Virus record (IMG/VR): IMGVR_UViG_3300044608_003120
Span: 1-24,066 of that record
Length of the DNA stretch: 24,066 nucleotides
From: a virus
Direction: 5' to 3' (one strand)
Made by a program: the position numbers and the translations under genes. The notes under the pieces were generated by a model. That model had not been told where the DNA came from. It ran no database searches and saw nothing but the letters and a program-made list of their open reading frames with translations. This document shows positions 7,208-18,188 of the stretch, piece by piece; the stretch's first letter is position 1, and every line of letters begins with the position of its first letter.

Positions 7208-7226
7208 TCACCGCCTATTGCCATGG
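7208..7226. repeat. 19-bp repeat, copy 2 (upstream of scaffold gene)
   Basis: Identical to 4050-4068 (TCACCGCCTATTGCCATGG on the plus strand) and again at a divergent junction, here between the scaffold gene (minus, start 7162) and the cupin gene (plus, start 7267). The following TGCC is also shared apart from one base. Candidate bidirectional promoter or regulator site of late genes. Confidence 0.6.
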
Positions 7227-7794: not shown

Positions 7795-8703
7795 TCAGCC
7801 CCGCGACAGCTCCAGCTGCCTGGCCAGCCAAAGCTCCACGTCCTCGTAGGTGTAGCGGACCAGGTTGCCGAGCTTCACGAAGGGCGGTCCGTAGCCGCTG
7901 GAGTTCCAGCTGTAGATGGTGGAGAGCGACACGCCCAGGTACGCCGCCAGGGTCTCTGGCGTGTAGAAGCCCGAGGGGAGCGAGGTGGTGCTGGTGTCGG
8001 CGTTGGCGGCGGCGCGACGTTTGGGGATGAACAACCAGCTCCCCAAGGGCAACTGGTCCGATGGTCGAGCGGTGATGGTGGGGTTGAGGCTGCGCAGGGT
8101 GGTCACGGTGGTGCCGTGGCGCTCGGCCAGCACATTCAGGCTGTCACCGCTGGCGACGACCACGACGCGGTTGGGTTTTAGCGCCGCCTGGATGCGTTCG
8201 CCCAGCAGCGGCTGGGTGAGGGAGCCGATGCCGCCGGCGCCGTAGATGCCGCCGAACTCGGTGACGGAGAAGGCGGCGAACTGCCCCCGGCTTGGGGAGG
8301 GAAGGCGGCCGGGGGTGCTCAGCTCAGCCAGCGGACCCAGCCACACCGCCCCGAAACAGGGGGTGAGCAGCGGCGGGTTTGTGGCCGATACCGGCCGAAT
8401 GCCACTGGTGCTCCAGTTAATGGCTGCAGCCAGCCAGTCCCAGGGTTGGGATGGTGTCAGCGGCAGCACCGCGCCGCGGGTGAGATAGCCCTCGTAGGTG
8501 AAGTCGCCGGTATCGAGCCCCGGAGCGTTCTCCTTGCTGGAGATCCCCCGCAGGCGCTTGATGAAACCCTCAAACAGAAAGCGCCCGGTGTGCTCGGAAT
8601 CCAGCACCCCCGGCAGCGCATTGGAGAACAGCAGGATGCGGGCGTTGGCATAGGGCTGCAGCGCGGAAGGCGGCAACCTTCCAGGGGCGGGAGTGGTGGT
8701 CAC
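7795..8703 (-). CDS. LysM domain + excisionase-type HTH fusion protein
   Basis: A 302-residue protein with an unrecognised N-terminal domain (residues 1-175, with Gly-rich loops such as GGIYGAGGIGSLTQ), a LysM domain at about 179-228 (VVVVASGDSLNVLAERHGTT ... LNPTITARPSDQLPLGSWLFIP), and a C-terminal helix-turn-helix at about 246-297 (FYTPETLAAYLGVSLSTIYS ... GPPFVKLGNLVRYTYEDVELWL), the pattern of MerR-like HTH_17/excisionase proteins. LysM binds peptidoglycan or mediates virion contacts (as in gpX/T4 gp53-type proteins); HTH_17 binds DNA. The reading frame is continuous. It starts 3 bases after the previous gene and lies between portal and scaffold genes, so a virion role is likely, while the HTH is unexpected there. 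Confidence 0.75.
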   Translation of the reverse strand: MTTTPAPGRLPPSALQPYANARILLFSNALPGVLDSEHTGRFLFEGFIKRLRGISSKENAPGLDTGDFTYEGYLTRGAVLPLTPSQPWDWLAAAINWSTSGIRPVSATNPPLLTPCFGAVWLGPLAELSTPGRLPSPSRGQFAAFSVTEFGGIYGAGGIGSLTQPLLGERIQAALKPNRVVVVASGDSLNVLAERHGTTVTTLRSLNPTITARPSDQLPLGSWLFIPKRRAAANADTSTTSLPSGFYTPETLAAYLGVSLSTIYSWNSSGYGPPFVKLGNLVRYTYEDVELWLARQLELSRG

Positions 8704-8706
8704 GGT

Positions 8707-9225
8707 TCAGCCCCGCTCCAGCGCTGCGGTGAAGCCGGCTCCACCGCCGCTGAGCTGAGGATCGCGGCTCCAGTTCGCCAGGGTGGGGAGCATCAGCAGC
8801 AACGCCTGGGCATGGCTGCCCCGCTGGCGCCGCAGGGCCTGCTCGATCGAGAGACCCTCGCCGTAGCGGGTGACCGTCTCCTCCCGCAGCAGCTCGGTGT
8901 CGAACTCGATCACGTCCGCCTTCTTGACCGGAAGCGTCCCGTCCTCCGGCAGGGCATCGGGGCTGACGGCCTTCCGACGGGTCTCGATCGGTGCCTGCAG
9001 CTGCTCCGGGCTCAGCCCCGCCAGCTCGGTGTCGATGGTGGCGATGGCATCAAGCTCGCGGCGGGCGGTTGGGATGGCGTCCGGGTAGAGCTGCTCGAGA
9101 TCCGCCATCGCGTCGTTGATGGCGCGGATCGCCGGCAGGCGGGCCGGTATCGAGAGGGCAACGCGGATCCACTCCAGGTCAGCAGCCCGCCAGCGGTAAG
9201 ACGAGTCGGTGAGGGTCTGGCTCAT
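8707..9225 (-). CDS. Small phage protein after portal, unknown (head assembly?)
   Basis: A 172-residue protein. I chose ATG 9225 because it overlaps the portal stop by 4 bases (ATGA); the frame is open further upstream, but only as a Gly/Ala/Arg-rich shadow of the portal gene. The protein is mainly helical (YRWRAADLEWIRVALSIPAR, AINDAMADLEQLYPDA) with a charged middle and a Gly-rich end. Translational coupling to the portal and position before the LysM-HTH gene suggest a head-completion or adaptor protein. No family recognised. Confidence 0.65.
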   Translation of the reverse strand: MSQTLTDSSYRWRAADLEWIRVALSIPARLPAIRAINDAMADLEQLYPDAIPTARRELDAIATIDTELAGLSPEQLQAPIETRRKAVSPDALPEDGTLPVKKADVIEFDTELLREETVTRYGEGLSIEQALRRQRGSHAQALLLMLPTLANWSRDPQLSGGGAGFTAALERG

Positions 9226-10808
9226 GCGGCGACCGCAGCGGCATCTGCCTCCTCTTGCCTTGGCGGCAGGGTCGACACCGCTGCTGGCTCTGCTGCGCGT
9301 TGCTCCCCGGCCTTGGTAGCCGGGCTGTCGTCGAGCGTCGGGCTGCTGATCGCATTGGCCGTGGCCAGGGCCAACTGGTGCCGCAGCTCCTCCCTGCTGA
9401 TCACCCCCTTGTCGAAGAGCTCGATCCATTCCTTCACCTGCGGCTGCGGCTGGATCGGCGGGGTGAGCGGGCTCACCGTCACCTGCAGGCCGGCCCCTGG
9501 ATCGAGGGGCTCCCCGGTCAGGGCGCACCAGTGCTGCAGCAGCGTGGAGAAGAGGGAGGCCTTCTGGATCGCCATCGCCTGCAGCAGCGCGTAGCTCTGG
9601 GAGGCGGTGAGGCTGATCTCCATCTCGGTGCGGGCTGCACCGCGGTTCTGGCTGGGGATCAGGGCATCGCGGCGCATGGTGTCATCGAGGATCTGCAGCC
9701 AGGCCCGGTGCTCGGCCAGCGAGCGGGCCCGGATCTCGACGAACTCAAAGGAGGCGTCAGCGGGCAGGTCCATGCAGGTGTTGGGTCCGAGCACGACCGG
9801 CCCGGCCTGGCTGTTGCCCATGGCGTCCACCATCCCCTTGCGCACGCCTACGGGGAGAGCCGTCCTGGATAGGAGCTCCTCGTATTCGCTCTTACAGCGG
9901 AAGTGGTTGAGGTACTGGTGCGCCAGTCCCAGGTGCGGCAGATCGCCCTCGCCAAAGGCGGAGCCGTCGGAGGTGTACCAGCAGGCCGGCAGCCGGCTGA
10001 TGCCCTCGTAGGAGGTCACCACCGGCTCGTCGCAGCGCCAGCCGCTGCTGGCCTGGGGATCCGCGCAGACCGGGTGATGGGCCAGCTGCAGGCCGGTGAT
10101 GCTGTCGCCTGCGGTGAGCAGCTGCAAGCTGCGGTAGTGCCAGCGGTCGGGGGCATCGGCATCACCCAGCAGGGCCTGGATCTGCTCGGTGACAGCGCCC
10201 TCGCTGCCAGGAGACTCGGTGCTGATGGGCCGGTTCACCGGCTCCCGCCAGATGATCCGGCCCGGCAGGCCGTAGGAGACGGGGAGCTCCCAGTTCAGGC
10301 AGTTTGCCCGCGGCACCAGCTGCAGCCTGGGCAGGGACAGGCGGTCACCCCTGCGCAGGGCCTCCTGCCGGTCGCCCTCGCTGGGCCAGCTGTGCTCGGG
10401 CGGCAGCACCAGCACCAGGGCAGCGCCATCGCGCAGCACCAGCAGGTCGGCCGCGGCGAGGAAGACGCCCAGGTCCGTGCCCCGGCCGTCCACATCGGTG
10501 AGCACTGAGGACAAGCTCGCGGGGAGGCTGATCCAGCTCCCCCGGCTGAGCATGCCGGCGTAGGTGCGCAGGGCATCGCGGAAGAAGCCCGAGGGGCGAG
10601 CGGCATCGAGGCGCTTGCGGTAAGCGGTCTCAGGCTCCCGTTCGCCCTTGGGCAGGTAGTGCTCCTTGCGGCTGCTTCCGTCGAAGGCGGCGAGCAGGGC
10701 CCAGCAGTCGGCGGTGATCTGGAGGGCGGGCTGAAGGGCGGTCAGGGTGGGGTGCTGGGCCCAGGGGGTGTGGGGCGCAACAGCTTGCGGCTTGGTGGCA
10801 GAGAGCAC
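9222..10808 (-). CDS. Portal protein (DUF4055-like)
   Basis: A 528-residue protein with portal-family features: an N-terminal helical part with EHYLPKGEREPETAYRKRLD (residues about 49-68), which matches the YLPRxxxExxxxYxxRL segment of DUF4055 portals, a beta wing (LVLRDGAALVLVLPPE), and the stem region with GLAHQYLNHFRCKSEYEELL and ASFEFVEIRARSLAEHRAWL. The C-terminus (VKEWIELFDKGVISREELRH) is also usual. Portals form the 12-subunit ring at the capsid vertex through which TerL packages DNA. Start is GTG 10808. In related phages portal usually follows terminase closely; here a 5-kb cargo separates them. Confidence 0.8.
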   Translation of the reverse strand: MLSATKPQAVAPHTPWAQHPTLTALQPALQITADCWALLAAFDGSSRKEHYLPKGEREPETAYRKRLDAARPSGFFRDALRTYAGMLSRGSWISLPASLSSVLTDVDGRGTDLGVFLAAADLLVLRDGAALVLVLPPEHSWPSEGDRQEALRRGDRLSLPRLQLVPRANCLNWELPVSYGLPGRIIWREPVNRPISTESPGSEGAVTEQIQALLGDADAPDRWHYRSLQLLTAGDSITGLQLAHHPVCADPQASSGWRCDEPVVTSYEGISRLPACWYTSDGSAFGEGDLPHLGLAHQYLNHFRCKSEYEELLSRTALPVGVRKGMVDAMGNSQAGPVVLGPNTCMDLPADASFEFVEIRARSLAEHRAWLQILDDTMRRDALIPSQNRGAARTEMEISLTASQSYALLQAMAIQKASLFSTLLQHWCALTGEPLDPGAGLQVTVSPLTPPIQPQPQVKEWIELFDKGVISREELRHQLALATANAISSPTLDDSPATKAGEQRAAEPAAVSTLPPRQEEADAAAVAA

Positions 10809-11157
10809 GGGCGCTGGCTGAGGCTAATTGCTCTTACCTGCTGGGTCTAACAGGGGTATCTCGGCTGTGTAGATCAACGGTCGCTGGTTGTCAGACCCAC
10901 GAACCATGGCTGTGCCTGAAGGACTTGGCTGACGAATCCATGCATGCACGGGGTTTCAGGTTCTGCAACATCGAGAGCCATGAAATAGATCCCGAAAAGA
11001 AGCAAAGCCGATTTCGCCGTTTGTGAAAACAGCAAAAACGAGTGATGCGACATGGAGGTTATATGGAATACGACCTGTGCCAAGCCAGCGACAACTATTC
11101 ACCCAGGCTAGCTTCGTGCCTGCATGAGCACACAGGAAGACAGCAGGTGTTAGCTGG
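10809..11157. other. Gene-poor left flank of the cargo
   Basis: About 350 bases between the protease gene and the portal start. The part above about 10850 is visibly less GC-rich than the portal gene. A 69-codon minus-strand frame (10874-11083) shows no family pattern and has an alternative start, so I do not call it. No clear terminator with a T-tract was found. Near the left edge the word ATTGCTCT (about 10827) recurs at the other cargo edge. Confidence 0.5.
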
Positions 11158-13857
11158 TCATTCTATCGCTGCGACATCTATTTCGATCTCATTACCTTCA
11201 ACCTCGGCTTCGGTCTGGGCTTGAAGTTCGACGTTCGCTGCTCGCAGTGGTTCGTAGATCGAGATTTCGCCGCCCAAGATTTCAAAAGTCACCGCGAGCG
11301 CATAGCGGGCCATCGAGTCTGGATCATGGCTCCAGCCCTGATGGCCTACCACGGCGATGCAGAAGTGGTCGGGAAGGCTATTTGAACAGACTACCGCCCA
11401 GTCCTTCTGCACCGTTCCACTATTTCGCTTGAAGTCACGAATGAGGCCGTCCTGGGGTTTGTCATGCAGCACCCAGGGCAGAGTGGTTCCGGGCAGCGGC
11501 GGGTCCTCGTTTGATACATCCTTCATAGCGCGCACCCGGAAATCGTGAAGCCCCTCGCCAAGCTTGCTGGCCTTCCAATCTACCCAGGTGGATAGATAGC
11601 GGCGTAGGTTGCGGCGTGTGCGCCTTGGCGCAGCAACATAAGACAGCGTTACATCAATGCGGATCTCGAACTCGTCAGCCTGCTGGCGCAGCTCTGACGG
11701 AATCGGCACTTGATATATGTGACATTCACCGGCATGAATTTCGGTGTCACCGTTAGTGATGAGCGTCGTTCGATGGTCCGTATTGGTGGTGGCTCGCGCT
11801 TCGTCGGGAATGCCGAATCCCAAGCAGCGGAAGGCGCTCGTCGCCGCGATGAGAAGGGCCTGTTTTTCCTCGGGCACCATGTTGGACGGTGAACTACGTA
11901 AGCGTGCCAAAATGTCATTGGCCCAAGCCGGCCATTGTGCAGATTGCACTACGAGTGCGCGATACAGAAGTGCCGACTCGGCGGGTAAGACACTTTGCAC
12001 TAATGCCGCAATTCTTGCGACTTTGGGGGCTGCAAAGGACGTTCCAGCCGTGTCTCGGTCCACTGCCGGTCCAGGCCCATGCAGTGTAGAACGGGCGAGG
12101 TTAGGACAAGCGGCAGGGATTACACCGCCTGCCTGGATATCCGGCGGCGCATTGCTCGTGCGGGCTGCGTCGCCACCGTACGCAACTACTTCGGGCTTGA
12201 TGACGCCCCAGATGCCGGGGCCTGTCCGCGAGAACGCCGACGGTCCTGCGGGCTGCGTGGCAAAGGTACGCCATTCACCATGCACGGCATGGTCGTATGC
12301 GATCGAGCCAACGGTCAGGGCCTGTAGGCTCTGGCCTGGATTGGCAATGCGAGCCGTATTTTCAGTTAGGTAGTCGGGATAGTCTCGCCCAGCGTCCAAA
12401 TGGTCGGCGATGCCAAGGAAGGGGGATGTGCCTTTTAGAAGCAGATTACCGGCGCTTTGAACTATGAGCACGTCCCTTTCATTGCACAACTGATCGATCT
12501 CTGCGGCCCAGGATGACATATAGCGCGTTCGGCAGTAGCTGAGCGCATTGATCGAGTGATTAAAGATGCGGGTTTGACGCGGCCCGTCGTTGAAGGATTC
12601 GACGACCTTGCGGAGCGCTTCGGGTGGGAAAATCTCTACCGGCATAGTGTTTTGAGCGTTGAGCACGCGAGCGTTCTGAATCCAGATCGGCAATTGCGGT
12701 GCGCCGGCGGTCGGGATGTCCTCGCCATACAGCAGGGCGCCTGCAACGCGTGTACCGTGGCCGCCCGGCGCCACTTCATCGGCGACAGCGGTCGCGGCTT
12801 GACCCGGCAGAAAGCAACGAGATGCAACATGGTCAATGCCAGGCTGAAGCAGGAAGTGCGCCTCTTGAATGCCGCTATCAATGACGCAGACGGCAGGTGC
12901 ATCAGCATCGGGTACAACCGGCACGACGGCTGGCGCCAGCTGTGCGCCTTGCTTGCCCTGGTTCTGGGGCAGGATGATATCTTCCGGTTCTACGACCTCG
13001 AAGATGTAGGGATAATTGAGCACGAAGTCCTTTAAGCCCCTGCCCGAGATCTTTAGCCGCACCGTGAAGCTATCTGGCAGGACACCCGCGTCGAAATCCA
13101 GGCCATCCGTCAGATGCAGGATTTGAGCTTGATAGAACTCGATGAACTTTTGAATGGAACTCTCGCGTTCGATCTTGATGTTGTCCCATTCTTTGTAGGC
13201 ACTAGCCCGCCGCTCCGACCATTCGAACTCTTTGGCAGCCCACTGGGCGTCAGTCGCACGCTTGCCGCGCACTGGGCGCGGGGGAATCTCCTGTATGCCG
13301 GCACAGGCGATTCCGATGTCGACGATGTAGGGTTGGTTTTCGTCGATATCGCACCAAGACCCCATCAGCTGCTCGGAAAGAATGCGACCGAGCCGATCTA
13401 CCTGATTGGGATCGTCGAAAATCGCGTGGATCTCGGCAACGGTCGCAGAGCCGTGCAACGTGTTGGCAAAGCCTTGAACCATATTACGGAAAGCGGAGAT
13501 TTCAATATCTTCAGACGCCACGATTACATAGCCCTCTTCCTGCTCTGCGACTACCTCAAATTGGAATTTGGCGCGCAGCTTGTCGAGGTCTAGGCCGGTA
13601 TCAATCTGCAGCAGGATGGGAATCCCCGCAGTGATTTCCGGCAAAGCTTGGCCTGCTGCTTGGCGCTGGGCCTTGCGGGCCTGCCAATTCGCACTGAGTG
13701 ACTTAGCCGCACTGTCCAGAGCATTAGAGTGCGCTTGTCGTTGGGCTCCCTTGTTAGCTTGCGTCTGCTGAGAAGGATTACCGCCTCCGCGGAGACGCGC
13801 CTTGCCCTGGTAGCGCATTAGTAATGGCAGGTGGTCAAAGTTGTGCGCGCCCGGCAT
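11158..13857 (-). CDS. ietS: Subtilisin-like serine protease, IetS-type
   Basis: An 899-residue S8 (subtilase) protein. The catalytic triad is visible: Asp327 in CVIDSGI, His367 in GGHGTRVAG and Ser607 in GTSFAAP, with the oxyanion Asn471 in IVQSAGN. It has no signal peptide, so it should act in the cytoplasm. An N-terminal region of about 300 residues before the triad and a C-terminal beta-rich region (FEIRIDVTLSYVAAPRRTRR) are as in IetS proteins. In IetAS pairs, IetS is the toxic protease and IetA its controlling ATPase; the pair was found on an Agrobacterium Ti plasmid and later shown to give phage defence. It follows the ATPase gene after 3 bases and has lower GC than the phage genes. 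Confidence 0.85.
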   Translation of the reverse strand: MPGAHNFDHLPLLMRYQGKARLRGGGNPSQQTQANKGAQRQAHSNALDSAAKSLSANWQARKAQRQAAGQALPEITAGIPILLQIDTGLDLDKLRAKFQFEVVAEQEEGYVIVASEDIEISAFRNMVQGFANTLHGSATVAEIHAIFDDPNQVDRLGRILSEQLMGSWCDIDENQPYIVDIGIACAGIQEIPPRPVRGKRATDAQWAAKEFEWSERRASAYKEWDNIKIERESSIQKFIEFYQAQILHLTDGLDFDAGVLPDSFTVRLKISGRGLKDFVLNYPYIFEVVEPEDIILPQNQGKQGAQLAPAVVPVVPDADAPAVCVIDSGIQEAHFLLQPGIDHVASRCFLPGQAATAVADEVAPGGHGTRVAGALLYGEDIPTAGAPQLPIWIQNARVLNAQNTMPVEIFPPEALRKVVESFNDGPRQTRIFNHSINALSYCRTRYMSSWAAEIDQLCNERDVLIVQSAGNLLLKGTSPFLGIADHLDAGRDYPDYLTENTARIANPGQSLQALTVGSIAYDHAVHGEWRTFATQPAGPSAFSRTGPGIWGVIKPEVVAYGGDAARTSNAPPDIQAGGVIPAACPNLARSTLHGPGPAVDRDTAGTSFAAPKVARIAALVQSVLPAESALLYRALVVQSAQWPAWANDILARLRSSPSNMVPEEKQALLIAATSAFRCLGFGIPDEARATTNTDHRTTLITNGDTEIHAGECHIYQVPIPSELRQQADEFEIRIDVTLSYVAAPRRTRRNLRRYLSTWVDWKASKLGEGLHDFRVRAMKDVSNEDPPLPGTTLPWVLHDKPQDGLIRDFKRNSGTVQKDWAVVCSNSLPDHFCIAVVGHQGWSHDPDSMARYALAVTFEILGGEISIYEPLRAANVELQAQTEAEVEGNEIEIDVAAIE

Positions 13858-13860
13858 GGT

Positions 13861-14871
13861 TTAACCCCCTTGTGCTGCGTCGTGACGCTGCAGCTCTTCA
13901 ACGGCCTTAATTAGCCTGTCTTGCGATAGAGACGTGCGTCCGGCAAGCACGGCTGCCTTGGCGGCATCCTGGGCAGCCTTCACGACCATTGCAGCAGATG
14001 ACCCTTCGAGTTTGGCGACAAGAGGTTCCCATGTGATAGTTCTATCCATCTGCACGCTAGACAGTGTAAGTTTTAGCAACTTTTCAATCTCTGCCTTTCC
14101 GGGCAATGGGATGAGGAAAACATCGTCGAAGCGCCTGAATAGCGCCGGGTCCAACGAGGACTCCAGGTTAGTCGTCGCGACGAGCAGACCAGGCGCGTCG
14201 TACTCCTCCATCTGCTGCAGCAGCGAATTCACGATGCGTGACACCTCGCCGATGTCCTTAGATGCCGTGCGAGATCGTGCAATGAAATCGCATTCGTCTA
14301 GCAGCAGCACGCATGGCTTTTCGCGCGCGCTGCTGAAGATAGTTCGTAGGTTCTGGGCAGACTCACCGAAAAAGGAGGAGATGAGAACGTCGAAGCGAAC
14401 CTTCATGAGAGGCAATCCAGTATTCCAGGCCAGCCGCTTTGCCCCCAGCGACTTACCACAGCCCGGGGGCCCGTAGAGCAACACGGTTTTGCGAGGCTTG
14501 AGTCCGAAGGTGCCTAGCCGATCTCGTGCCGCATACTCGGCTTCGATGCGTGCGAAACGCTGCTCCACAGCTTTGGGCAGAACCATGTGATGCTCCAGCT
14601 GGTCGTGGGGGATGAGCGCGGCCAGCGACTCCCCATTACGTCGACTAACAGGCAATTCATTGAGCGAGCGCTCTATGTCACCTGAAGGAATCGGCGATGG
14701 CAGCATACGTTTCGGCCTAGGCTGCTTGAGAATGGCCTCCAACTGCTCGGCCAATCTGACGTGGCCTGTTTTTCTTTCTGCTTCGACAATTTTACCCGCG
14801 AGTCGGTCCAAATCAGATTGTGAGCCGTCGACGATGGCTCGCACGACTCTCTTGATCATATCGCCGTTCAT
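13861..14871 (-). CDS. ietA: AAA-family ATPase, IetA-type
   Basis: A 336-residue AAA+ ATPase: Walker A GPPGCGKS (134-141), Walker B LLLDECD (189-195), sensor-1 Asn235 in VATTN, and a RRF arginine-finger pair at 246-247 (DPALFRRFDD). The N-terminal 90 residues are helical and probably bind the protease or the trigger. The start ATG 14871 has an AGAGGA ribosome-binding sequence 9 bases upstream (14881-14886), which fixes the start. It is coupled with the protease gene (3-base gap). In the known pair IetA acts as the antitoxin or regulator of IetS. The fold is of the classical AAA (FtsH/spastin-like) group; the partner gene makes the IetA call much firmer. Confidence 0.85.
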   Translation of the reverse strand: MNGDMIKRVVRAIVDGSQSDLDRLAGKIVEAERKTGHVRLAEQLEAILKQPRPKRMLPSPIPSGDIERSLNELPVSRRNGESLAALIPHDQLEHHMVLPKAVEQRFARIEAEYAARDRLGTFGLKPRKTVLLYGPPGCGKSLGAKRLAWNTGLPLMKVRFDVLISSFFGESAQNLRTIFSSAREKPCVLLLDECDFIARSRTASKDIGEVSRIVNSLLQQMEEYDAPGLLVATTNLESSLDPALFRRFDDVFLIPLPGKAEIEKLLKLTLSSVQMDRTITWEPLVAKLEGSSAAMVVKAAQDAAKAAVLAGRTSLSQDRLIKAVEELQRHDAAQGG

Positions 14872-14873
14872 TT

Positions 14874-14898
14874 ATTATAATCCTCTGCTGGCAGTCAA
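14874..14898 (-). promoter_or_regulatory. Possible promoter of the ATPase-protease operon
   Basis: On the minus strand TTGACT (14898-14893) and a perfect TATAAT (14879-14874) occur just upstream of the ATPase start, but they are only 13 bases apart instead of about 17, and the TATAAT lies almost at the start codon. A real promoter may use other elements. Confidence 0.25.
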
Positions 14899-14909
14899 TG
14901 GAGAGAGCG

Positions 14910-14929
14910 CCAGCCCATCCACAGGCTGG
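14910..14929. other. Inverted repeat in the leader of the ATPase gene
   Basis: CCAGCC (14910-14915) and GGCTGG (14924-14929) pair around an 8-base loop, about 40 bases upstream of the ATPase start. It could be a leader hairpin or an operator. Confidence 0.3.
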
Positions 14930-14958
14930 AGTCCGTTGCCAAAGACTGACCCAGGCAC

Positions 14959-14975
14959 ATTCGAATTAATCGAAT
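14959..14975. promoter_or_regulatory. Palindromic operator candidate upstream of the ATPase gene
   Basis: ATTCGA and TCGAAT flank ATTAA as a perfect 6-bp inverted repeat in an AT-rich stretch, about 88 bases upstream of the ATPase start. Size and symmetry are those of a dimeric regulator site; toxin-antitoxin operons are commonly autoregulated, but no regulator gene is seen in the pair. Confidence 0.35.
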
Positions 14976-15372
14976 ATTGCCGGAAAACAATCTTCATCAG
15001 ACTACCTCCAGATCATTATTTTTGGTTGAACCAGATGCAGAATCATAAGCGCAGCACCAGGGCGCTTGTTTTGGTAAATACTCCGATTGCGCAGCCGAGA
15101 GGCGCATTTTGCGGTGGCCCGGAGAAACTTTGGGCTGACGTGCGCACTTTTGCTCATGAACTTGATCTTGGCATTCGGGCTCCAATGGATTTGCTGGTCC
15201 TAGCAAGAGCTGATCAAAGTTACGTGGCGCGACCTGATCCACCGCCCTGGCTTCTCTAAGCCCTTCGGGAGTGGCCAGGGCCCATTCAAAGGTTGACGTA
15301 CTAGCCTTGCGCATGGCCCCAGCCTCATCTAGCCCGACGAAGGGCATGGAATCGCTTGAGCCATTCTAGCAG

Positions 15373-15413
15373 CTACTGTTACCGCAGCGCAGATCATCAG
15401 AGCGTAACAGTAG
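15373..15413. other. 10-bp inverted repeat with 21-base spacer
   Basis: CTACTGTTAC (15373-15382) and GTAACAGTAG (15404-15413) are perfect complements in opposite direction. Arm centres are 31 bases apart, close to three helical turns, which suits a protein-binding site or recombination site more than a terminator. No T-tract follows. Confidence 0.5.
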
Positions 15414-15842
15414 GCGGCGGTTCAGTAATTAGCTCGGAGCGCCCAAAGCCTCATCTTTTGACGACTTCTAATCCGGCACCCAGTTCGCCCAGCAATAAAT
15501 AAGCTGCGAGGCTGATCTGACCCGCTTGAACGCCGGCTGGGCAATGTTCGCTGGATCACATGTTGCTCAACCTGGTGCAGAGATGTTGCGTGTCAGCATG
15601 TAAGCATCTAAGGCTCTTGGGTCCTGGCTTTTTCCGATCGATCGTCGTTATAAGAAGTCCTCTTCATAGGAGTCGAGAAGTAGCACTACTGTCAAGCGAT
15701 ATGTCGACCAAGATACGCTAGCGACTGACCTTGATCGACGGCGATTCCGGGCACTTGACTCGACCAAACGCAAATACCACTAATTTTCCGCATAAACTAA
15801 GCGGGCATCGGGGTGGGCTTTCGCTTGAATGCAATGCAGTCA

Positions 15843-16484
15843 TCAATATTGCTCTGCGACCTCCATTGCTACCACCCTTTGACTGCAAGCCTCTACGACC
15901 TCGCGCCACCGCTCCGGACTGATCCCAAGCCGCTCAGAGGCATCATCTAAAGCCATCCCCAAGCGCAACAGCTTCTGCCCCCGCGCATAGAGCTCCCTCC
16001 AGGAGGCCGGCACCTTGATCAGAAAACCCTTGTCGCGGAGATAGTGATACACCTCCCCGTTCGCATAGGTGCGGGCATAAGGCCGAAATGATCCCCGCTC
16101 TGGTGCATAACGGCGGGCGGCCTGGAGGATGCCAAGCATGGCGATCTGCTCCAGGTCGTCCTTGGGGTGGCCGGTGCGGCGGGAGATGTTGCCAGCCACG
16201 GTCCTGGCAATGTCACGGTGCTGCAGGGCCAGGGCATTGGCGGCGGCATGGGGATTGACGGGCCGGTGCCGCCGCGGCTTGGCCGGGAAGGCGATCACCA
16301 GCTGAACGGCATCGCCCTCGGGGTGGGGCCGGGCTTGCGGTCGATGACCAATCCCAATGCGCTTGGCGCTGCTGGGCTTCGGCAGACACGTCGCCACGAC
16401 CGGCGGCCGCAGCGGCAGATCAAGCTGACCGGTCGCACCACAGCAAGCGGGCGTTCGCAGTGGCCGGGCGATCGCGTCAGTCAT
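15843..16484 (-). CDS. Phage-encoded sigma-70-like protein lacking region 4
   Basis: A 213-residue protein. Residues about 83-160 match sigma region 2: DIARTVAGNISRRTGHPKDD, LEQIAMLGILQAARRYAPER, SFRPYARTYANGEVYHYLRD. A region-3-like helix pair follows (GMALDDASERLGISPERWREV). The protein ends soon after (MEVAEQY), with no region 4, which normally reads the -35 box. The N-terminal 75 residues are Pro/Arg-rich and not conserved. The gene starts 3 bases after TerL. It may direct RNA polymerase to late phage promoters, as phage sigma factors do elsewhere, or be a broken gene cut short by the cargo insertion. Confidence 0.75.
   Translation of the reverse strand: MTDAIARPLRTPACCGATGQLDLPLRPPVVATCLPKPSSAKRIGIGHRPQARPHPEGDAVQLVIAFPAKPRRHRPVNPHAAANALALQHRDIARTVAGNISRRTGHPKDDLEQIAMLGILQAARRYAPERGSFRPYARTYANGEVYHYLRDKGFLIKVPASWRELYARGQKLLRLGMALDDASERLGISPERWREVVEACSQRVVAMEVAEQY
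16468..16475. repeat. HIP1 octamer GCGATCGC
   Basis: Highly iterated palindrome typical of cyanobacterial genomes, here at the start of the sigma-like gene. A second copy is at 22262-22269 in the extended form GGCGATCGCC. Supports a cyanobacterial host. Confidence 0.6.
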
Positions 16485-16487
16485 CGC

Positions 16488-18188
16488 TCAGCGGCTAAAG
16501 ACCATCGGTACCGGCGAGCTGCCGTAGCCCCTGCCGCGCCAGAACTGGGCCTCGATCCAAAGCACCCCTTGGCAGAAGGCATCCACCTGGTCGTCGACAC
16601 CGCCGCGGGGCGAGAAGGCCAGCAGCTCCTCAATCAGGGAATCGGCCTTGCGGGCAAAGCGAACCTGCCCCGCCTCCACCAGAGGGGCCACGGCATGGGC
16701 ACGGGAGGCCTTGCTGCCCTTGGGCGGGATGGCGATCAACCCCGGCACCTGACGCTTGAGCAGCTGGCAGACCGCCGGGCCGTTGGCGGCGTCTTCGATC
16801 AGGACGGCGTTTGGGCGCAGGCCCTGCCGCTCGAGGGACACCAGCGACGCCAGCAGGAACTTGATCACCCCTGGCAGATCCAGCCGCTGCCGATGGGCCC
16901 AGAGGGCTTCGATTTGGAGTTCGGCCCAGGGGTCCTGACCGCCAGCAGGGGAGTGAGTGGCACTCACACCCCTTGGCGAGCCTTGAGCCGCGGCCGCATT
17001 GGCGGCCAGCGCCAGCCCCTGCCGCCTGGCATCCACGGCCGGATGGCGCTGCGGCTCCAGCAGGCCCAGCAACGCAAAACCGCAGGCGTCGTTGTCTTTG
17101 CCGTCCTTGAAGCTCAGGTCGCAGCTGAGCACCAGCGGCGCGTAGCGACGGGGCTGGCCCGGAGCGGCCGGCAGCGGCGGCTGGATCCAGTCCTTGCGGA
17201 ACAGCAGGCCTTCGGCAGGACTGGGCCGCTGCTGATAAAGGGCGTTCCACCAGTAGGAGCCGAGGCGGGTGCGGATGCGCTGGAGAACCGCCAGGGGCAC
17301 CCGTTCCGGGCAAAGCGGTTCGCCCGGCTGGCGCCAATCAGGGACTTTCGAGCAGGTATGCGGAATCTGCATAGAAATGGCTTCCGGCTCGGCGATAGCC
17401 GGCAGGTTGAGCACCGTCCAGTGCTCCGGGTTCTCCTGGTTCTCCTGCTCCAGCAGCCAGGCGGTCATGTCGTGGTGATCCCAGCGGGTCTGCACCACCA
17501 CCTGCGCCGCCGGGAGCAGGGCTCCATCGGCCGTGAGGCCCGGTTCGGCCCGGGTGAACCAGACACTCTTCAACCAGTCGATCAGCCGCTCGCGCTGCAG
17601 GGCGCTCTTGGCGTCTTCCGGGCCCTTGTAGGGGTCGTCGATGATCCCGAGGTTGTAGCCCTTGCCTGTGAACGGGCCCTTCACGCCAGCAGCGATGCAG
17701 CCGCCGCGCTGGGGCGTCAGCCAGTTGCCCACCGCGGCCGAATCCTTGGAGAGGGCGTGGCCGGTGATCCGGTAGTAGTGCCGGGCTTCTCGGCTGTGGG
17801 CATAGGCCAGCTCGCCGGAGTAGCTGGCGATGGCGCAGAACAGCTCCGGGTGCCGGCTCACCCAGTAGGCGGGGAACAGCCGCGACACCAGCTGGGACTT
17901 TCCATGGCGCGGCGGACAACAGACGATCAGACGGGTGAGCTGGCCATTGGCCACCTGCTGGAGCAGGTCGATCAGGAGCTCCGACAGCCGGTGGAATTGA
18001 AAGCTCGGGAAGGCGCTGCGGATGAAGTCGCGGAACAGCAGGCCTTGGCGGGTCATTGACGCCCGGTCGGGATCCGGAACACCCAGTAAGCCCCAGTCGG
18101 CCCACAGGTCAGTGGCGGGATCCAGCAGCAGACCACCGTCAAGGCCAGACGGGGCTGGGGACCCAAGGGTGGAGGCAACACGACCCAT
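16488..18188 (-). CDS. terL: Terminase large subunit
   Basis: A 566-residue packaging motor. ATPase domain: Walker A CPPRHGKSQ (91-99), Walker B IIDDP (182-186), coupling motif region QTRWDHHD (233-240). Nuclease domain (RNase H fold): Asp357 in VLSCDLSF, Glu/Asp 465-466 in VLIEDAANG, Asp532-533 in VDDQVDAF. A Gly/Ala/Pro-rich insert (residues about 381-418) that is not usual in the family interrupts the nuclease domain and contains a 27-nt palindrome in its DNA. TerL cuts concatemeric DNA and drives it into the prohead through the portal. Its ATG shares one base with the TerS stop (TGATG). Confidence 0.9.
   Translation of the reverse strand: MGRVASTLGSPAPSGLDGGLLLDPATDLWADWGLLGVPDPDRASMTRQGLLFRDFIRSAFPSFQFHRLSELLIDLLQQVANGQLTRLIVCCPPRHGKSQLVSRLFPAYWVSRHPELFCAIASYSGELAYAHSREARHYYRITGHALSKDSAAVGNWLTPQRGGCIAAGVKGPFTGKGYNLGIIDDPYKGPEDAKSALQRERLIDWLKSVWFTRAEPGLTADGALLPAAQVVVQTRWDHHDMTAWLLEQENQENPEHWTVLNLPAIAEPEAISMQIPHTCSKVPDWRQPGEPLCPERVPLAVLQRIRTRLGSYWWNALYQQRPSPAEGLLFRKDWIQPPLPAAPGQPRRYAPLVLSCDLSFKDGKDNDACGFALLGLLEPQRHPAVDARRQGLALAANAAAAQGSPRGVSATHSPAGGQDPWAELQIEALWAHRQRLDLPGVIKFLLASLVSLERQGLRPNAVLIEDAANGPAVCQLLKRQVPGLIAIPPKGSKASRAHAVAPLVEAGQVRFARKADSLIEELLAFSPRGGVDDQVDAFCQGVLWIEAQFWRGRGYGSSPVPMVFSR
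16947..16973. repeat. 27-nt palindrome inside terL
   Basis: Arms AGGGG-A-GTGAGTG and CACTCAC-A-CCCCT flank one central G; only one position (A/A) is mispaired. It lies in the non-conserved insert of the nuclease domain. Confidence 0.55.

Follow-up and report, generated by a model that had tools for sequence, protein, structure and literature searches.

An IetAS protease-ATPase module between the sigma-like and portal genes of a picocyanobacterial phage lineage

The locus and its borders

The window, by which we mean the whole 24,066 bases of viral DNA that were analyzed, contains a head operon whose genes run in one direction in the order TerL, sigma-like gene, portal, LysM/HTH protein, and scaffold-like protein. 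An initial annotation had placed an AAA+ ATPase and a subtilase between its sigma-like and portal genes. Family matches to the two bordering genes bear out this position, and the sequence confirms the coordinates of the two reading frames, their shared strand, and the 3-base gap between them. The features of the locus are as follows.

16488 to 18188, minus strand: TerL, the terminase large subunit (PHROG phrog_38, 7e-79), which served as the anchor for finding relatives
15843 to 16484, minus strand: sigma-70 region-2 (sigma-like) gene, the left border of the slot (Pfam Sigma70_r2, 4e-12), in all 79 slots compared
10809 to 15842, no strand: cargo slot delimited by blastn breakpoints, without counterpart in 23 close sister loci
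15020 to 15317, minus strand: remnant of a HigA-like helix-turn-helix regulator upstream of IetA, its homology split between two frames
13861 to 14871, minus strand: IetA, an AAA+ ATPase of 336 amino acids (Walker A GPPGCGKS, Walker B LLLDECD)
11158 to 13857, minus strand: IetS, a subtilase of 899 amino acids (triad D327/H367/S607)
9222 to 10808, minus strand: portal gene, the right border of the slot (PHROG phrog_145, 1e-33), in all 79 slots compared

When the window was compared by blastn with the 23 sister loci that have the most similar TerL, DNA homology ended at or near the stop codon of the sigma-like gene and restarted at or near the start of the portal gene, so that the insert in the window spans 10809 to 15842. 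The two genes do lie inside an insert, as had been claimed, but at 5034 bp the whole of it is larger than ietA and ietS alone. The low GC content ascribed to the pair was also evident. GC is about 0.68 outside and 0.54 to 0.60 across 10.5 to 16 kb, while GC3 is 0.63 in IetA and IetS versus 0.83 to 0.89 in TerL and the portal gene. Scans for sigma-70 promoters and terminators gave a result no better than chance. An open reading frame at 14997 to 15347 (116 amino acids) was rejected as a third gene; it overlies the regulator remnant and has no family match. Elsewhere in the head operon, the LysM protein encoded at positions 7795 to 8703 carries an HTH_17 domain at its C terminus, and in some relatives (L005 and L009) homology to this protein ends at about residue 210, ahead of the HTH part.

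Profile searches assign the pair to IetA and IetS, in agreement with the initial annotation. The PADLOC model PDLC02196 matches IetA at 2.2e-73 over residues 5 to 331 of 336, and PDLC02198 matches IetS at 4.8e-58 over residues 308 to 858, which leaves the N-terminal 290 to 300 residues of IetS outside the PADLOC matches. Pfam finds AAA in IetA (1.5e-29) and Peptidase_S8 in IetS (7.6e-30). Nearly the full length of both proteins is covered by PHROG families of unknown function, phrog_3757 for IetA (2e-104) and phrog_3964 for IetS (2e-174 over residues 5 to 886), and since these are phage families, phage-borne members were already known. The motifs read earlier from the sequence are present: in an alignment with three relatives the residues D327, H367, and S607 are invariant and both Walker motifs are kept. 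By sequence comparison, the nearest PDB entries to the AAA domain of IetA are AAA hexamers of the CDC48/PAN type, and no solved structure resembles IetS by sequence at E 0.01. An AlphaFold2 model of IetS built from four sequences had a mean pLDDT of 39 and was set aside.

Relatives and origin of the module

Like IetAS of pTiC58 and sgiAT of Salmonella genomic island 1, the window pair consists of adjacent AAA+ ATPase and subtilase genes on a mobile element, with ietA directly 5' of ietS, an order also found in pTiKerr27. It differs from the pTi type in that its IetS is only about 25% identical and extends at the N terminus beyond the PADLOC models. The closest relative is viral contig L002 (IetA 91%, IetS 83% identity), whose DNA is 79.6% identical over all 3714 bases. 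A conjugative plasmid of Burkholderia plantarii follows (IetA 89%, IetS 73%), and a further relative adjoins parA/parB on a Planctomyces plasmid. Among genomes of the host family, 9 of 300 encode IetA at 1e-30, with 31 to 37% identity, and 16 of 386 cyanobacterial genomes encode IetS at 1e-60, none of them above 49% identity. No relative emerged when viral contigs were scanned at the DNA level with IetS patterns. In the IetS tree, the window groups with L002 (support 100/99), then with the Burkholderia plasmid, and then with viral contig L003, apart from 13 of 14 cyanobacterial IetS proteins. Since IetS nests among proteobacterial mobile elements and not among cyanobacterial homologs, the module crossed phyla, and on this phylogenetic evidence its source is proteobacterial mobile elements.

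The module has also been inserted elsewhere. The phage homology of L002 sets in sharply just past IetS, within a tail-protein gene, at a point corresponding to about residue 440 to 470 of the 650 to 676 in its relatives. IetAS therefore disrupts the tail gene, and its movement is not tied to a particular phage. L003 belongs to an unrelated phage family whose gap between TerL and portal is mostly about 0.3 to 0.9 kb; in L003 it measures 4.6 kb and encloses a regulator as well as IetAS. Together with the slot in the window, this makes two unrelated lineages that place cargo in the terminase-portal gap. A few other members of the L003 family have inserts of 2 to 4.5 kb in this gap (L198, L220, L228, L237, L246, L180, and L181).

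An intact DNA-binding regulator of 104 amino acids precedes IetA in both of the nearest relatives, L002 and the Burkholderia plasmid; pTiKerr27, in contrast, has no regulator gene directly before IetA. In the window this gene appears broken. A tblastn search with L002:168-482 as query matched 15314 to 15135 (32%, 3e-4) in one frame and 15172 to 15020 (42%, 1e-4) in another, and the remnant shares 63.7% nucleotide identity with the Burkholderia plasmid over 295 bp (1.4e-5). The split between frames may reflect decay or a sequencing error. A broken regulator upstream of IetA could mean that the module is decaying or abnormally expressed.

A slot with interchangeable cargo

Viral contigs yielded 79 loci with TerL relatives, and a search of GTDB genomes based on 11 aligned TerL proteins also yielded 79. 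Slots were then compared across the loci in which both flanks could be seen, again 79 after removal of six double views. The initial annotation had read the pair as cargo, and the comparison upholds this. None of the 79 slots contains IetAS, including those with portals 90 to 94% identical, and in each the sigma-like and portal genes enclose other DNA. The interval between these genes ranges from 0.6 to 7.2 kb, with a median of 2.2 kb and a standard deviation of 1330 bp; for five other intervals that we checked, the standard deviation was 47 to 492 bp. Every slot is filled, the shortest with about 0.6 kb, and in all 79 the slot has the lower GC content (mean 0.513 versus 0.678 in the flanks). 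The cargos form 70 nucleotide clusters. At the protein level, 136 cargo reading frames of at least 150 amino acids fall into 117 clusters, and 646 flanking frames fall into 106 clusters, eight of which dominate. These large cargo frames mostly run antisense to the late genes (111, against 25 in the same direction), and the window IetAS belongs to the minority oriented with them. These comparisons show that IetAS is cargo in a slot bordered by the sigma-like and portal genes.

Two short elements near the portal gene were considered. Pairwise matches had suggested a conserved 29-base element upstream of it, which was discarded on account of its absence from most loci. The other, a strand-biased motif of sequence [TC]GGCAANAGC, occurs some tens of bases 5' of the portal gene in 44 of 74 loci, and the form with T first is found in 31 of 73 loci, where 0.36 would be expected. 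It recurs before the scaffold gene, there followed by a GAGCAC...GTGCTC hairpin. In the window, near matches lie on the late strand at 7223 and 4065, and a degenerate one precedes the portal gene. Possibly the motif acts as a late start signal.

The lineage had been called cyanobacterial, and its relatives in cellular genomes are confined to cyanobacteria. By title, all GTDB genomes with TerL relatives are cyanobacterial, nearly all of them Cyanobium, Synechococcus, or Vulcanococcus, and the genes sit inside large chromosomal contigs, one of which is a complete chromosome. WH 5701 and one contig of Cruz-8D1 each have a tyrosine integrase on the strand of TerL, 9 to 10 kb upstream of it, and in FGCU6 a broken integrase lies about 10 kb away on the opposite side (distances computed from the gene coordinates). 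The prophage phiSynAce1 of Synechococcus sp. SynAce01 (65,524-73,790; PMC6337551) contains a TerL of this family at 70,049-71,644 and shares the sigma-like and portal genes with the window, with a filled slot between them (L146). It differs in that its slot holds other genes and that it was reported as an 8.2-kb, replication-defective prophage locus. Because no integrase is found near the SynAce01 TerL copy, and because the 24,066-base window, in which none is in view, ends short of the expected place, we only infer lysogeny for the phage of the window itself. One genome, Cyanobium sp. Cruz-8D1 (G006), carries about a dozen copies of the TerL family with differing slot cargos, several of them broken (L096, L097, L099, L100, L111, L132, L150, L154, L155, and L166).

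Other slots are rich in defense-type genes. Of 40 cargo reading frames tested from 38 slots, 16 matched a PADLOC model at 1e-8 or better, a number raised by generic ATPase, helicase, and HNH models, and 24 had no match at that threshold. In a control with one representative of each flanking cluster, at most 8 of 106 matched (Fisher p 1e-5; 3e-4 with three doubtful matches taken out). The cargo frames were longer on average than the controls, and since lengths were unmatched, the size of this enrichment is approximate. The matches comprise Shedu SduA (L009), an AriA/OLD ATPase (L021), Lamassu LmuB with an ABC-3C CTD6 partner (L027), GmrSD/HEC-06 (L029), NsnA with a HEPN protein (L018), PDC-S15 FRG (L019), bSEFIR/TIR (L035), a HamB-like helicase (L008), HEC-01A (L129), HEC-04 (L149), a TmtA-like protein (L158), HNH proteins (L109 and L157), a dGTPase (L143), PDC-S33 (L156), and one doubtful desaturase model (L152).

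Possible roles of the module and of the slot

Prophage defense hotspots are already known from P2/P4, Vibrio, and Bacillus prophages, and the one in temperate P2-like phages, between the replication gene A and the portal gene Q, likewise carries interchangeable defense cargos next to the portal (PMC9122126). The window, by comparison, comes from a cyanobacterial lineage unrelated to P2, and the left border of its slot is a sigma-like gene that follows TerL. Conserved flanking phage genes surround interchangeable, unrelated cargo in both cases (here 79 slots and about 70 clusters), and the sigma-portal slot is a probable new prophage defense hotspot, familiar in kind but new in location. The literature we searched contained no earlier description of a picocyanobacterial sigma-portal slot, which is not proof that none exists.

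We consider it likely that a temperate-type phage lineage of Cyanobium and Synechococcus maintains this slot for cargo, and that in the window the slot holds IetAS from proteobacterial elements, serving the defense of the lysogen. In the lysogen, IetA would restrain or gate the subtilase until a competing phage infects the cell and upsets this restraint, whereupon IetS would cleave vital proteins and stop the infection. The outcome would be abortive infection or superinfection immunity, protecting the host population along with the resident prophage. IetAS was reportedly recovered in the antiviral screen of Gao et al. in 2020. In the homologous sgiAT, the subtilase is toxic in Escherichia coli and the ATPase relieves the toxicity (PMC5006074). 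The Pseudomonas filamentous prophage PfAC08 also bears IetAS, there associated with phage resistance by an unknown mechanism (PMC11878078); unlike the window phage, it is an inovirus with the pair at the genome end, and its IetS is only 24% identical to that of the window.

A serious rival to defense is addiction, in which IetS is a stable protease toxin and IetA a labile antidote that together mainly kill cells losing the prophage. Precedent comes from pTiC58, which is stabilized by IetAS, and from SGI1, which is stabilized by sgiAT (PMC5006074), and the relatives on the conjugative Burkholderia plasmid, the nearest outside phages, and beside parA/parB point the same way. However, sgiAT expressed from its own promoter caused no post-segregational killing (PMC5006074), and the Pfam and PADLOC matches in sister slots are mostly of defense type with few classic toxin-antitoxin genes, although two HEPN proteins and one GNAT-like protein occur. 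We therefore judge lysogen maintenance as the main role to be unlikely. Prophage loss could free IetS as well, so an addiction effect may accompany defense. Given the rest of the slot contents, we infer that defense is the function for which IetAS was selected.

Other explanations fare worse. The slot might simply tolerate foreign DNA, with IetAS of no benefit to the phage and the broken regulator an early sign of decay. The apparent frameshift upstream of IetA and the many slots whose cargos have very low GC and no known function would fit such passive carriage, but both large reading frames are intact with conserved motifs, slot contents are enriched for defense models, and no slot examined was empty, which together make it improbable. 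The position of the pair between TerL and portal, on the strand of the late genes, might instead suggest that the subtilase and ATPase serve head assembly as a virion-maturation protease. This is highly improbable, and we reject it because sister loci, even those with portals 90 to 94% identical, do without the pair; moreover, DNA 80% identical interrupts a tail gene in the unrelated contig L002, and a 73% identical copy resides on a plasmid. The initial annotation had named two outcomes that would count against cargo defense, namely, proteins outside the IetA/IetS clades and a pair always present as a virion protease, and neither holds.

Picocyanobacteria rank among the key primary producers of fresh and marine waters, yet little has been described of the benefits they draw from their prophages. 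Our analysis shows that defense modules pass between proteobacterial and cyanobacterial mobile elements. A broader reading, toward which we lean only slightly, sees in the sigma-portal gap a dedicated armoury that an entire picocyanobacterial prophage lineage maintains, with single host genomes carrying as many as about a dozen copies. On this reading, the low-GC cargos without a match would mostly be anti-phage systems not yet known, and cargo can come even from another phylum. With about 70 different cargos in a fixed and easily recognized place, the slot can serve as a short list of anti-phage genes, some already known and others probably new. Cargos without a PADLOC match in nine slots (L006, L011, L012, L090, L096, L125, L140, L150, and L151), which reach 1772 amino acids in L125, are candidates for new defense genes.
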